From IMG/VR virus record IMGVR_UViG_3300042197_000731, positions 1 through 64,000 of that record: a stretch of DNA of 64,000 bases. One strand, written 5' to 3'. This DNA comes from a virus. The first letter of the stretch is position 1, and every line of letters begins with the position of its first letter. Both the position numbers and the translations under genes were made by a program. This document shows, piece by piece, positions 11,320 to 17,834 of this stretch. The notes under the pieces are model-generated. The model did not search any database. It had not been told where the DNA came from and saw nothing but the letters and a program-made list of their open reading frames with translations.

Positions 11320-12162
11320 ATGAATGAACAAATAGAAAATCCACTGAAAAAATACTATAGACAACCACAACTTTACATCAAATTACCCAGTCGCGGTGAA
11401 TGGTGGCCAGAAGGTAGTTTATCCAAAACAGTGACAAACGAATATCCCGTGTTCGCAATGACTGCCCGTGACGAACTGGCATTAAAAACACCAGATGCGC
11501 TACTAAACGGTCAATCAACAGTAGATGTTATTCAGAGTTGTGTTCCTAACATAAAAGACGCATGGCACACACCAATTTGCGACATAGATCACATTCTTAT
11601 CGCAATTAGATTGGCTACTTACGGCAATGCCATGGATTTCACCAGTTTATGTCCACACTGTAAACACAAGAATGAACATACTCTAGATCTTCAACTACTG
11701 CTAGACAAGTACAATACACTACCATCCTGGAACAAAACCCTACAAGTAAAAGATTTAACAATAAGTTTAAAGCCAGAATCATATAAAACATTCAACAACA
11801 AAAGTATCAAGACCTTTGAAGAGCAACGTGTCATTCAAATGATAAATCAGGAAAGTCTATCTGAAGCCGAAAAACTAGAAAAATTCAAAGAGATGTTCAA
11901 AAAACTGCTACAACTTACTGTGGAGCAAGTAGCAGGCAATATAAATTACATCAAGTTAGATGCACAAACTGTGGTAGACAATCACGCATTTATCAATGAC
12001 TTCTTCCAGAACTGTGATAGAGACATATGGAATACAGTCAATGATGCTATTGCTGAAATTAAATCCAACACACCAACGAACAAGATAGATCTACAGTGTG
12101 AATCATGTACTAAAGAATATCAAACACCCTTAGTTTTTGAGATGTCCAATTTTTTCGGCTAA
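11320..12162 (+). CDS. 26: Baseplate hub assembly protein, gp26 family
   Basis: The 280-residue protein carries the T4_baseplate (gp26) pattern: LYIKLPSRGEWWPEG near residue 20, then a region with MTARDELALKTPDALLNG. Two Cys pairs, CPHC at about 110 and CESC at about 266, may bind one zinc ion. T4 gp26 (208 residues) is needed for building the central hub of the baseplate; it is shorter than this protein. It is divergently arranged from the tape-measure-like gene, with only 53 nt between them, and is followed 5 nt later by a small partner gene. Family assignment is firm; details of its role are from T4. Confidence 0.88.
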   Translation: MNEQIENPLKKYYRQPQLYIKLPSRGEWWPEGSLSKTVTNEYPVFAMTARDELALKTPDALLNGQSTVDVIQSCVPNIKDAWHTPICDIDHILIAIRLATYGNAMDFTSLCPHCKHKNEHTLDLQLLLDKYNTLPSWNKTLQVKDLTISLKPESYKTFNNKSIKTFEEQRVIQMINQESLSEAEKLEKFKEMFKKLLQLTVEQVAGNINYIKLDAQTVVDNHAFINDFFQNCDRDIWNTVNDAIAEIKSNTPTNKIDLQCESCTKEYQTPLVFEMSNFFG

Positions 12163-12167
12163 CGCTT

Positions 12168-12386
12168 TTGACTCTTTCCAATGAGGAAGTAATCAAACTA
12201 CTTAATGATTACGACCGGGAGTCAAAAGCACTACGAAAATACATATACAAACTAGTCTGGTACATGCGAGGTGGAGTCAATATAGATCAAGGCTTTGAGA
12301 TGGGACATCAAGATCGTGAGATCATCAACGACATCATCAAGGAAAACATAGAGAAAACCAACGAGACTGGTTATCTATTCATTTGA
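12168..12386 (+). CDS. Small baseplate-hub accessory protein (gp51-like)
   Basis: A 72-residue helical protein with the pattern YDRESKALRKYIYKLVWYMRG and EMGHQDREIINDIIKEN, which I associate with the short gene that follows gp26 in many T4-like phages of aquatic hosts and is often labelled gp51 or hub accessory. The start is a TTG at 12168; no in-frame ATG occurs before WYMRG, so TTG is required. It lies 5 nt after the gp26 stop and is almost certainly translated with it. The role in hub assembly is inferred from the neighbour. Confidence 0.65.
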   Translation: MTLSNEEVIKLLNDYDRESKALRKYIYKLVWYMRGGVNIDQGFEMGHQDREIINDIIKENIEKTNETGYLFI

Positions 12387-12451
12387 TCAACTCTAGACGC
12401 CATAGTTCATTTATACAACACATTTTTTTACTAGCGTTTTATACCGTATTA

Positions 12452-13041
12452 ATATGAGGTGTGCGAAGCACACCCATATCGTCTGCGTTAATCTTCGTCG
12501 CTATTCGCTCCTGCGATTAACTTGACGATCTTTTCGAGAGGAACATACTAGAACCAGGATTCAACCTATTACCATTCATCTAGATTACTGCCTCCCTTTC
12601 GCCCACGCAGGGCGAAAAAAAATCGTAGTGATACACTACGACTTCTATGGTGTTTCATCTGAGTTGACCACCACACAGCATTGGGACTACAACAACATCT
12701 GAATTTTTCAACTCAGGAAATGTAACGTAGGCGGTTGTCCGGTACCTACTCATCCAGTCTTTCTTACAACGGCGGGTTATATTGCTAATGCTGTCCTTCA
12801 ATATAACCGTGCGATATCTCTATCGCGTCTTTTTACCCATAATTCCTGTTCAAACAATCAAACCGCGGGATTAGCGATCTACGTCCTGTCAAGGATAGTG
12901 ATTGAGTTCTCGTAACAGCGACGAGGTTTCCATTCCCTGTGACCCGGCGGTCCAGTTTTAGGGCATCCGAAATTAGGCCGATGCTAGCCATTACTGTTTG
13001 AAAGTTTGCCTGTAGATTTCGCAGATGTGCGGTGCGTCGCT
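12452..13041 (-). ncRNA. Candidate large structured RNA region (strand and ends uncertain)
   Basis: About 670 bases (12387-13057) hold no credible protein gene but are packed with paired segments. They include 12452-12456/12475-12479 around 12458-12464/12468-12474; 12478-12483 plus 12487-12493 with 12515-12521 plus 12524-12529; 12597-12604/12610-12617; 12659-12667/12708-12716 (9 bp); 12727-12731/12745-12749 with an inner 3-bp stem; 12775-12784/12799-12808 (10 bp); 12811-12816/12821-12826 (6 bp, a GAGA loop on the minus strand); and 12917-12923/13035-13041 (7 bp). G+C is higher than in neighbours (31 of 60 at 12901-12960). A hairpin plus T8 at 12615-12641 and the GNRA loop favour the minus strand for 12642-13057. 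Possible families include GOLLD-type phage RNAs or a degenerate self-splicing intron; none is confirmed. Confidence 0.6.
12615..12641 (-). terminator. Intrinsic terminator inside the structured region
   Basis: Stem tcgtagtg and cactacga with a 3-nt loop, followed on the minus strand by eight T residues. It is a textbook Rho-independent signal and would end a transcript running from the GIY-YIG gene through 13057-12642. The T8 overlaps the next hairpin (12597-12617). Confidence 0.8.
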
Positions 13042-13057
13042 ATTAAACCATGATGAA

Positions 13058-13474
13058 TTAAATCTTCAATTTACGAACTTTGACCGATATCCATTCGTTG
13101 TACCAGTCATCACTGAGTAAAACACCGTAATCAAATTGATACTTCGCTTCCCAGTAGTTTAGTTCGTTCTTTGAATAACAATACCTTAATATTTGTCTAT
13201 TAAAATTTTCTGAACCTGTTGTTTTTACTTCTTCTGATAATACCGTGTTTGAGCCATAATAAGTTTGCCAGTCACTATCAATTTCATATCTTATTTTAGA
13301 TTTCTTTTTAGTGCCGTTTTTGAGCCTTGATGTTTTTAACCTGATTTTTTTAAATTTAGATAATTTTTTGCCTATATATTTTCGTCCAGTTGACCGATTG
13401 GTTATCATATATACAAAACCAACCACATCTTCTGGTAATGTTTCAATAATTTTTTCTTCAAATATCCAAGTCAC
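13058..13474 (-). CDS. GIY-YIG endonuclease (SegE-like homing nuclease)
   Basis: A DNA-cutting enzyme of free-standing homing type. The GIY-YIG core is seen as GFVYMITNRSTGRKYIGKK (about residues 18-37), followed by a basic stretch (KFKKIRLKTSRLKNG) and YYGSN, a pattern typical of Seg-type nucleases of T4-like phages. There is no ATG before the core: the frame has TTG at 13477 and GTG at 13474 after an in-frame stop, so GTG is chosen. A perfect TATAAATA late box overlaps the start, which would give a nearly leaderless late transcript. It lies 13 nt after gp46 and directly before the structured RNA region. It may have been mobile together with that region (inference). Confidence 0.8.
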   Translation of the reverse strand: MTWIFEEKIIETLPEDVVGFVYMITNRSTGRKYIGKKLSKFKKIRLKTSRLKNGTKKKSKIRYEIDSDWQTYYGSNTVLSEEVKTTGSENFNRQILRYCYSKNELNYWEAKYQFDYGVLLSDDWYNEWISVKVRKLKI

Positions 13475-13478
13475 CAAC

Positions 13479-13486
13479 TATTTATA
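13479..13486 (-). promoter_or_regulatory. Late promoter box TATAAATA at the GIY-YIG gene start
   Basis: An exact match to the T4 late promoter box on the minus strand, ending 4 nt before the GTG start. A transcript from here would have little or no leader and would then run into the structured region and its terminator. In T4, homing-nuclease genes are often placed under late promoters. Confidence 0.6.
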
Positions 13487-13490
13487 CACA

Positions 13491-15281
13491 TCATATGGTA
13501 TCGGAATTTTTCACAATCTCCACATCAGAACTATATCTAGTAAAGCCACTCTCTTTAACTACGTACATTATATTATTAACTCTACTAGCCAATTCATCTT
13601 TATGGCTAATTAACCATACAGATTTACCGCCTCCTCTTGCCATTTTCTTCAAAATCTTCAGAGAATTTTCCACGCCAGAACTATCCATGCCACTATCTAC
13701 TAGTTCGTCAATGAACAGCAGATTGATAGGCTGATACAAACTTTCCCATACATCACGGAAAGCCCAACTCAGGCTTAGAATAAGACGGTTACGTTCACCA
13801 CGTGAAAGATTATCAAAATCCAACTCACGACCCAGTTCTTCAATTGAAACTGATAGATCATTATTGAACTTAACGGTGTGTGGCAGTTCAATATCGTTCA
13901 AGTAGTACGCAAGTCTGCCGTTCAGGAAGTTTAGATTCTGATCAATAATTTGCTTACGTATAAAACTATCCTTGTTAGTAAGTAACTTGAGCAAGAATTC
14001 TTGATGATCACGAACCCTGGTCAAACTGTTAATCAAATCGTATGAAACTTCTTCAATGCCATTCTTTTCCATTTCTGTAATCTGTTCAGCATATGGGTCA
14101 GTCTCTGACACCTTCTTTTCTATCTGTGAGAATAGATGATTGATACTGCTTTTGTGAGCAACCGCTTCACTTTCCGTGTCATAAAATACAACGGGAGAAA
14201 CACCTAATGAACCGATAGCATCTATCTTCTTATTAACTTCTGCCAAACTTTCTGTTATCCGTTCAAGAAGTTCAGCCGTTTTACTTAAATCTGTTTCTTT
14301 GCGTTCAAGTAGAGTAGCATGATTATCATCATGTAGGGCTTGACCGCAACTGTGACACTTATGATCTTTCAGTGACTGAACATCAGCATTCAATTGAAAT
14401 AAAGTTTTTTCCTCTCGGACAAAATCCTTCTTCAGTGACTTCTTTGTTTTTTCTAAGTCTGTTAGATTTGTTTCCTTGACTTTATATGCTGCCAACTGCT
14501 TATGTGAGGCTAACTCAATATCAATATCAAGTTTAAGTAGTTCATCGTAAGCAGCAGTTAATTCTGTTAGTTCGTCATCATGCTTCTTTTGCCACAGTTT
14601 TTGTCTACGTTTGGTAGAATCAATTTGTTCTTGAATTCTGGTATTAGCATCTTTGACTGCTTTGATACGAAATTCTTCTTGCTGGATAGCATCCTTGGTG
14701 ATGCGGATCTGTTCTTTAAGACCTTCCGCTTTCTCACTCAGTAAGGTGATACCTAGCAATTGTTCAATGATAGTTCTTTGATCGGCCGCTTTTAGGCTTA
14801 GAAAAGGTTCTGTGTACGTGTTAAGTGCCACGATATGCTTAAACATATCATGGCGCATGTTTATCAAACGTTCAATTTCCTGTTGCGTTTCTCTACTGTC
14901 ACCCTGACTATTGTCGTCAGAACTTTCCATCTCACGATCATTGACAAAGAATTTCAGGACGTTAGGTTTACGCCCACGTTCAATTCTGTAAGATGTATTA
15001 CCACATTCAAAATCAACAGTTACCAGCATATTTTTGCCGTTGGTTTTGTTGATCAGATTATCTTTTTTGATGTTAGTGAGGGCTTGCCCGTAGAACGCAT
15101 AACTTAGGGCATTGATGATAGAAGTCTTGCCCGTGCCATTACGACTACCAGCGTCATCGCCACCTAAGTCAATGTTACTGCCTAACACCAAAGTTAAATT
15201 ATCTCTATCAAAATTTACGGCCTGTGTTTGATTGCCTATTGATAGAAAATTTTTCGCGGTGATGTTCTTGATTTTTAGCAT
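13491..15281 (-). CDS. 46: Recombination nuclease subunit gp46 (Rad50/SbcC-like ATPase)
   Basis: With gp47 it forms the SbcCD/Mre11-Rad50-type complex that resects DNA ends for recombination-dependent replication and host DNA breakdown. Of 596 residues, Walker A is GSRNGTGKTS (about 45-54), a zinc hook CHSC lies near residue 309 between two coiled-coil arms, the ABC signature LSRGERNR is near 490, and Walker B LLFIDELVD is near 520, followed by the SHKDE switch. The length is close to T4 gp46 (560). It lies 7 nt after gp47, so the two are expressed together. All motifs are intact. Confidence 0.95.
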   Translation of the reverse strand: MLKIKNITAKNFLSIGNQTQAVNFDRDNLTLVLGSNIDLGGDDAGSRNGTGKTSIINALSYAFYGQALTNIKKDNLINKTNGKNMLVTVDFECGNTSYRIERGRKPNVLKFFVNDREMESSDDNSQGDSRETQQEIERLINMRHDMFKHIVALNTYTEPFLSLKAADQRTIIEQLLGITLLSEKAEGLKEQIRITKDAIQQEEFRIKAVKDANTRIQEQIDSTKRRQKLWQKKHDDELTELTAAYDELLKLDIDIELASHKQLAAYKVKETNLTDLEKTKKSLKKDFVREEKTLFQLNADVQSLKDHKCHSCGQALHDDNHATLLERKETDLSKTAELLERITESLAEVNKKIDAIGSLGVSPVVFYDTESEAVAHKSSINHLFSQIEKKVSETDPYAEQITEMEKNGIEEVSYDLINSLTRVRDHQEFLLKLLTNKDSFIRKQIIDQNLNFLNGRLAYYLNDIELPHTVKFNNDLSVSIEELGRELDFDNLSRGERNRLILSLSWAFRDVWESLYQPINLLFIDELVDSGMDSSGVENSLKILKKMARGGGKSVWLISHKDELASRVNNIMYVVKESGFTRYSSDVEIVKNSDTI

Positions 15282-17218: not shown

Positions 17219-17834
17219 TAAAATTTTCCTTTTTATGTTTACATTGATCAAAATGCCATCGTTTCATCTGAGGCAATCCGCCTATTGTCTCGCAGTGAGG
17301 GCACTGAATTTTTGGTTTTTCTTTCCGCAATTTTTGTTTAGTTTCTTCGGTATGTTTTGGACCATTTTTTCCTATCTTTGAAACTGATATATTCTTTTTC
17401 TGATCTGTACTTCTTTTTTTACCTTTGTTCGCAATAGAAATTTTTTGCTTGGTTTCATTAGATAATGGTTCTCTCTTACGATTTTTTGCGGCAAGGGATC
17501 TCTTTTCCTTAGTTTCCTTGGACTCGTTACATTTTGCTTTTGCCATTTTTTCTCTAGTCTGGGGTGAAGGATTAGAAATCCCCTCACCCCCGTCTGTCAT
17601 ATTAATCAAAATGCCAGTGCCCAAATCTTTTCTTCCGTATTTGGAAATAAGTAATTTTTCTAGCTCTAATGCCTCAGATTCGAGAAGATTTGTTTTGACA
17701 AATCTTATTTTAGATATGTCATTTGGCATGCCTCTGTTGTGTTTAACAAACGCTCTACGCCCGCACCCTTTTCCAATGTAATAAGGACTTCCGTCATTTC
17801 TTACATACTCGTAAACATAAAAAATATTTTTCAT
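17190..17834 (-). CDS. GIY-YIG homing endonuclease with NUMOD-type repeats
   Basis: The N-terminal GIY-YIG domain reads YVYEYVRNDGSPYYIGKG (about residues 6-23) with the later conserved Arg and Glu region (LLESEALELEKLLISKYG). Residues about 90-165 hold several short Lys-rich helices (SNETKQKISIANKGK and similar units) of the NUMOD3 DNA-binding type. A C-terminal CPHC-x(n)-H-x3-C element looks like a zinc finger. It overlaps the gp55 start by 29 nt and has a late-type box directly upstream. Homing nucleases inserted beside essential phage genes are common in T4-like genomes. The basic, A-rich codon use differs from gp55. Confidence 0.85.
   Translation of the reverse strand: MKNIFYVYEYVRNDGSPYYIGKGCGRRAFVKHNRGMPNDISKIRFVKTNLLESEALELEKLLISKYGRKDLGTGILINMTDGGEGISNPSPQTREKMAKAKCNESKETKEKRSLAAKNRKREPLSNETKQKISIANKGKKRSTDQKKNISVSKIGKNGPKHTEETKQKLRKEKPKIQCPHCETIGGLPQMKRWHFDQCKHKKENFNDQNKLSQQ

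Follow-up and report, generated by a model that had tools for sequence, protein, structure and literature searches.

HEARO, the HNH endonuclease-associated RNA, is a structured RNA that lies beside an endonuclease gene. Of the large RNAs of phages, GOLLD has a conserved 3′ region and a less conserved 5′ region, and ROOL is a large pseudoknotted RNA whose function is not known (PMC12286853). Polynucleobacter-1 (RF01718) was judged probably cis-regulatory by Weinberg et al. 2010 (PMC2864571), the only paper in the searched literature in which that name occurs. The locus described here lies in a window of 64,000 nucleotides (the whole stretch of DNA that was analysed), which belongs to a 123-kb virus record containing one copy of the RNA.

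A preliminary description of the window had proposed a candidate large structured RNA, with no credible protein gene, in the region 12387-13057, and cmscan of both strands, homologues and covariation all supported it. RF01718, on the minus strand, was the only Rfam family matched in the window, at full length and far above its gathering cut-off of 37 bits, and nothing else in Rfam reached E = 1 in 12100-13600. The G+C content noted earlier (31 of 60 at 12901-12960) was confirmed, and 12387-13057 has 44% compared with 36% in the window as a whole. None of the small open-reading frames on either strand of this region had a Pfam match or made a credible protein gene, and no reading frame is conserved across the two repeats described below because the distance between them varies modulo 3. 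For the same reason a short open-reading frame running from repeat 1 to repeat 2, apparently open in a few sequences, was rejected. On the minus strand, 12450-13013 has a folding energy of -177 kcal/mol, lower than that of any of 100 dinucleotide shuffles (z = -3.7); on the plus strand the departure is smaller (z = -2.8). We regard this interval as almost certainly the gene for a large, intricately folded non-coding RNA, of which the previously catalogued part is the front third only, the remainder falling outside every Rfam family. Its 3′ end would lie near 12450, not far from the 12387 first proposed, and its 5′ limit closer to 13000 than to 13057.

Coordinates of the RNA, its structural parts and its neighbours (window positions unless stated otherwise)
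Feature	Positions	Strand	Basis and remarks
Whole RNA	12450..13013	-	about 550 nt (500-560), ends inferred; 51-sequence alignment A1 and structure counts
5′ domain, RF01718 Polynucleobacter-1	12852..12989	-	cmscan 114.8 bits, E 3.6e-24, full model 1-141
Pseudoknot P1, 5′ strand ACAG	12994..12997	-	covarying pairs -8:74 and -6:72; pairs with hairpin loop 12915-12918
Pseudoknot P1, 3′ strand CUGU (hairpin loop)	12915..12918	-	covariation, structure counts
3′ core, outside Rfam	12597..12799	-	held-out match to model R1, E 8.2e-6; covariation
Hairpin GGUUAUAUUG..CAAUAUAACC	12775..12808	-	loop 12788-12794 pairs with 12675-12681 (pseudoknot); structure counts
Conserved hairpin UAGGUACCGGACAACCGCCUA	12728..12748	-	structure counts
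Direct repeat 1, CUC + AGAUGAA	12654..12663	-	identity covariation
Hairpin + T8, window-clade insertion	12615..12642	-	alignment A1; follows repeat 1 and precedes the next conserved hairpin
Conserved hairpin UUUCGCCC..GGGCGAAA between the repeats	12597..12617	-	structure counts
Direct repeat 2, UCU + AGAUGAA	12575..12584	-	identity covariation
Hairpin B, GAGCG..AGCGA apex, 3′ side	12478..12530	-	recurs in homologues; covaries in class B
Hairpin C, terminal, GGGTGTGCTTCGCACACC	12458..12475	-	variable-sequence perfect stem in homologues
SegE-like GIY-YIG endonuclease gene	13058..13477	-	directly upstream; PF19835, E 1.4e-29; synteny
gp46 / SbcC-like recombination endonuclease subunit	13491..15281	-	upstream; phrog_77, E 7.6e-103
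RNA copy L511	G010:62600-64600		
RNA copy L512	G010:11800-14200		

Homologues were sought by scanning IMG/VR with DNA patterns taken from the RF01718 motif, followed by nhmmer, which gave a first set of 76 homologous places. The 3′ core was present in at least 374 fetched loci, some of them overlapping, and the carriers are hundreds of uncultured T4-like viruses of bacteria. Sequence conservation runs past the end of the Rfam model: viral contigs share a second block, in unchanged register, that extends through the repeats. This block is followed by a small hairpin, by hairpin B and finally by hairpin C. Fifty-one full-length RNAs of 438-564 nt were placed in a sequence-based alignment, A1, in which the window row is one base out of register at the 5′ pseudoknot. 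RNAalifold predicted 62 pairs on this alignment, 38 of them changed on both sides. Covariation was assessed with a home-made test (a G statistic with average-product correction, compared with a null in which the substitutions are reassigned over the branches of the tree); the top pairs lay above every null value and about 29 had E <= 0.15. The covarying pairs are mostly Watson-Crick and are found in the 5′ domain and the 3′ core alike. A named structure of 67 pairs with three pseudoknots, derived from the same alignment on which its pairs were counted, was paired in 97.0% of A1 cells. Double-sided changes were seen in 46 of the 67 pairs, with 405 double-change cells compared to 103 in shuffles, and sliding the partner by 1-3 columns as a control lowered pairing to 33-42%.

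The conserved structure differs in several parts from the one first proposed. A 7-bp helix between 12917-12923 and 13035-13041 is an exact match in the window but is not conserved and is attributable to chance, being broken in a near relative (L131) that has CGACGCT against an unchanged AGCGACG. Pseudoknots do exist, as had been surmised, but between other segments. The covarying P1 is the actual pseudoknot of the loop to which the 7-bp helix had been assigned; in another, the GGUACCGG hairpin (12728-12748) pairs through its loop with GUUG near 12766-12771. The intrinsic terminator reported earlier is a real minus-strand hairpin with a T8 run, but it lies inside the RNA, in the window clade only, as a terminator-like, lineage-specific insertion. 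Within that clade (the window, L131, L180, L183 and L212) its stem varies among members with pairing kept. The window-clade RNA might end at 12615, at this strong terminator-like hairpin preceding repeat 2; if the hairpin does terminate transcription, the window's RNA would be without repeat 2. Otherwise the 3′ end of the RNA, in the window as in its relatives, is probably hairpin C, a perfect stem of at least 6 bp in 57 of the 59 homologues examined, with a changing stem sequence. A private insertion of about 30 nt, possibly an extra hairpin, follows the Polynucleobacter-1 domain in one RNA (L289, 2273-2776).

A pattern built from the 3′ core alone matched at least 120 contigs and, among the matches listed, about 30 loci had the core with no detectable Polynucleobacter-1 domain. 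Some few have merely diverged (L483, 47 bits) or are cut at a contig end, and most have a different, unrelated 5′ domain, which we term class B as distinct from class A, with Polynucleobacter-1. The class B RNAs (at least 97 distinct sequences) have covarying helices in the new 5′ domain and covarying 3′ hairpins, and their core is of the same kind as that of class A; none of the class B examples tested against Rfam was recognised. From the sequences compared, the core is what both classes share, and it can be joined to at least two alternative 5′ domains, one of them Polynucleobacter-1. A combined class A and B model, R1, from which the window core had been left out, nevertheless matched that core; the alignment did not match the helices of one class to those of the other, so that R1 retains only 7 pairs and behaves largely like a sequence profile.

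The RNA has a conserved place in the genome, in the order gp47 (SbcD-like), gp46 (SbcC-like), SegE-like GIY-YIG gene and RNA. It is followed in the window and many relatives by a convergent small gene and a baseplate gene, and in other lineages by a co-oriented gene. The 72-aa protein encoded at 12168-12386 of the window has no Pfam or PHROG match and is conserved beside the baseplate gene in many RNA carriers. No conserved promoter was found upstream of the RNA, and transcription by read-through from the gp46/GIY-YIG operon with subsequent processing is therefore probable. A late-type promoter, TATAAATA, lies directly after hairpin C in 17 of 67 loci and serves the next gene. This arrangement bears on whether the RNA is a cis-regulatory element of a neighbouring phage gene, either a riboswitch or attenuator in a 5′ UTR or a control element in a 3′ UTR, as the listing by Weinberg et al. 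2010 (PMC2864571) would have it. Its nearly constant position after the gp46/GIY-YIG operon, the co-oriented gene that comes next in some phages and the hairpin with T8 within the window-clade RNA are all consistent with such a role. A 5′ UTR position for RF01718 is nevertheless not what was found, as the gene that comes next runs convergently in the window and many relatives and the context is variable, and downstream neighbours that differ between lineages speak against a cis element tied to a single gene. In addition, the RNA closes with its own variable hairpin, after which, in those 17 loci, the promoter separates it from the next gene, and, at about 500 nt and with three pseudoknots, it greatly exceeds usual attenuators. 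We consider a cis-regulatory role unlikely, and an RNA acting in trans probable.

The core contains two direct repeats, A-CUC-[xGAUyAz]-G and, 3′ of a GC-rich hairpin, A-UCU-[xGAUyAz]-A. Among 186 distinct cores, 178 had the same 7-mer in both places, with x being A or G (95:93), y G or A (95:93) and z variable, whereas the three flanking positions (CUC/UCU) were identical in only 0-3 of the 186. The class A tree showed 15 changes of x and 5 of y, every one of them in both copies on the same branch, and in class B, which is independent, changes were joint in 12 of 17 cases for x and 6 of 8 for y. Several strongly diverged members have a shifted or altered 7-mer and still carry a common string in both copies (ACGAAAU in L346, GACGAA in L270). 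One 145-kb phage record (G010) has two diverged RNA copies on opposite strands, in which all four repeats are the rare 7-mer AGAUGAG; the second copy adjoins an open-reading frame of tandem peptide repeats.

Coupling of this kind could have arisen by template-switching copying between the repeats instead of through a common partner. Short direct repeats that flank a hairpin favour slippage, and the coupled changes occur without mixed intermediates. Copying would, however, be expected to spread into CUC/UCU, where identity stops sharply; the homology is just 7 nt, and all four repeats agree in two distant copies within one genome. Template switching thus appears quite unlikely as the source of the identity. 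A complement of the 7-mers in cis (an anti-repeat) was not found by 9-mer search or by column covariation, and identity rather than complementarity suggests that both repeats meet the same partner, a reading that we hold tentatively, as a serious possibility. As speculation, CUC and UCU could each pair with GGG; a search of seven long phage records for a GGG-type complement in trans to both gave isolated matches and no consistent site. Nor did those seven records show a consistent site for a third copy of the repeat, two extra copies apparently falling within coding sequence. In the window, a 12-nt copy of repeat 1 with its flank (CTCAGATGAAAC) occurs on the minus strand at 17263-17274, just upstream of a late sigma factor gene, and is probably a coding coincidence.

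The neighbouring GIY-YIG gene, which scores 103.3 bits against PF19835 (SegE_GIY-YIG; Pfam gathering score 25), raises the question of whether RNA and endonuclease form a ribonucleoprotein in which the RNA acts as guide or scaffold. Such a complex would be HEARO-like, and the coupled repeats could serve as its reading sites. A protein-similarity search gave 75 GIY-YIG loci with room for the RNA, and in 61 of them the core lies directly downstream, and RNAs of either class can follow the same GIY-YIG gene. Against this, 13 of these close GIY-YIG relatives are without the RNA, the RNA occurs with no adjacent GIY-YIG gene in L288 and with a more distant one in L269, and SegE-like proteins of other T4-like phages are encoded at other loci where the RNA is absent. 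The association may be mere synteny, and an RNA-guided nuclease, though possible, seems improbable, as the link, while strong, is not obligate and SegE-like proteins occur without the RNA. The neighbour noted in the preliminary description is thus real and conserved, but the link drawn there to homing or mobile elements is not supported, the locus being syntenic. The adjoining homing-endonuclease-like gene and the possibly splice-site-like direct repeats might recall a self-splicing intron tied to a homing endonuclease, either as a remnant or as a variant. This is highly improbable, given that no group I or II intron model of Rfam matched the RNA at E up to 1, that the RNA lies between genes and splits none, and that no cis guide complementary to the repeats was found.

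On balance we favour a trans-acting phage RNA of about 500-560 nt, composed of a 5′ domain and a pseudoknotted 3′ core with repeats that share a partner. In the proposed mechanism, the Polynucleobacter-1 domain, or the other 5′ domain in class B, is joined to the conserved core, and the RNA would be transcribed downstream of the gp46/GIY-YIG operon. The core would expose both identical 7-mers (CUC-xGAUyAz and UCU-xGAUyAz) unpaired, and both may bind the same partner, which could be a protein, another RNA or a site on DNA. In that case the RNA may serve as a ribonucleoprotein scaffold or a guide, or may act late in infection in host takeover. A more specific picture, conceivable but unlikely, is that of a phage RNA machine with exchangeable 5′ domains, a common core and twin co-evolving 7-nt reading sites that match one fast-changing partner. 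If the repeats do act as such twin guides, the partner would be a host or phage nucleic acid, possibly together with the adjacent GIY-YIG nuclease, and the role would be in host takeover or DNA targeting.

The RNA was also seen in jumbo-sized phage records of 354-364 kb (L265, L276 and L286), and the nearest gp46 proteins are those of PA5oct-type jumbo phages, at 50% identity. No match was found by blastn of several RNA types against 50,697 isolate phages or of one RNA type against 72,556 plasmids; PA5oct, Atu_ph07 and Melnitz had no match to RF01718 or R1, and four further phages had none to R1. Two pattern scans of bacterial genomes yielded nothing in one case and three chance-looking loci in the other, and the whole genomes of two of these, when searched, contained no RF01718. 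Across 399 Pseudomonadota genomes there was a single sub-threshold RF01718 match (25.8 bits), at L671:1501-1656 on the minus strand of a genome of about 1.7 Mb, which retains the CACUAUCCUUAAC-GGACG block and the closing helix and has no detectable 3′ core. A literature search, outside which most subscription journals lay, found no paper describing the full-length RNA.

A catalogued 141-nt RNA without known function is thus one third of a widespread pseudoknotted phage RNA of about 500 nt, and the analysis adds the two thirds that had been missing, a second class that has its own 5′ domain, and the 7-nt repeats that change in lockstep. The window RNA is a full-length member of Polynucleobacter-1 (RF01718, PMC2864571) over 12852-12989 of the minus strand, and the members found in this analysis are in phage records; the Rfam model covers the 5′ third and includes neither the 3′ core nor the repeats nor the terminal hairpins. 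Like HEARO, the RNA adjoins an endonuclease gene, but this gene is of the GIY-YIG and not the HNH type, the position is fixed and not that of a mobile element, and there is no Rfam match to HEARO. It is also, like ROOL, a large pseudoknotted phage RNA, and differs in having no Rfam match to ROOL and no tRNA genes in the window. The preliminary description had named GOLLD as an example of such RNAs, but the 5′ third is RF01718 instead; the RNA is shorter than GOLLD, differs from it in sequence and structure, has no Rfam match to it (E up to 1, 12100-13600) and, with no tRNA gene in the 64-kb window, is not located in or near a phage tRNA array. The remaining two thirds, the second class and the lockstep repeats, with the question of which partner both repeats read, offer concrete handles on why large phage RNAs exist, a question common to GOLLD and ROOL. 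Both GOLLD and the RNA described here are large, ornate RNAs of phages, and the combination of a common 3′ core with differing 5′ domains is reminiscent of GOLLD (PMC12286853).
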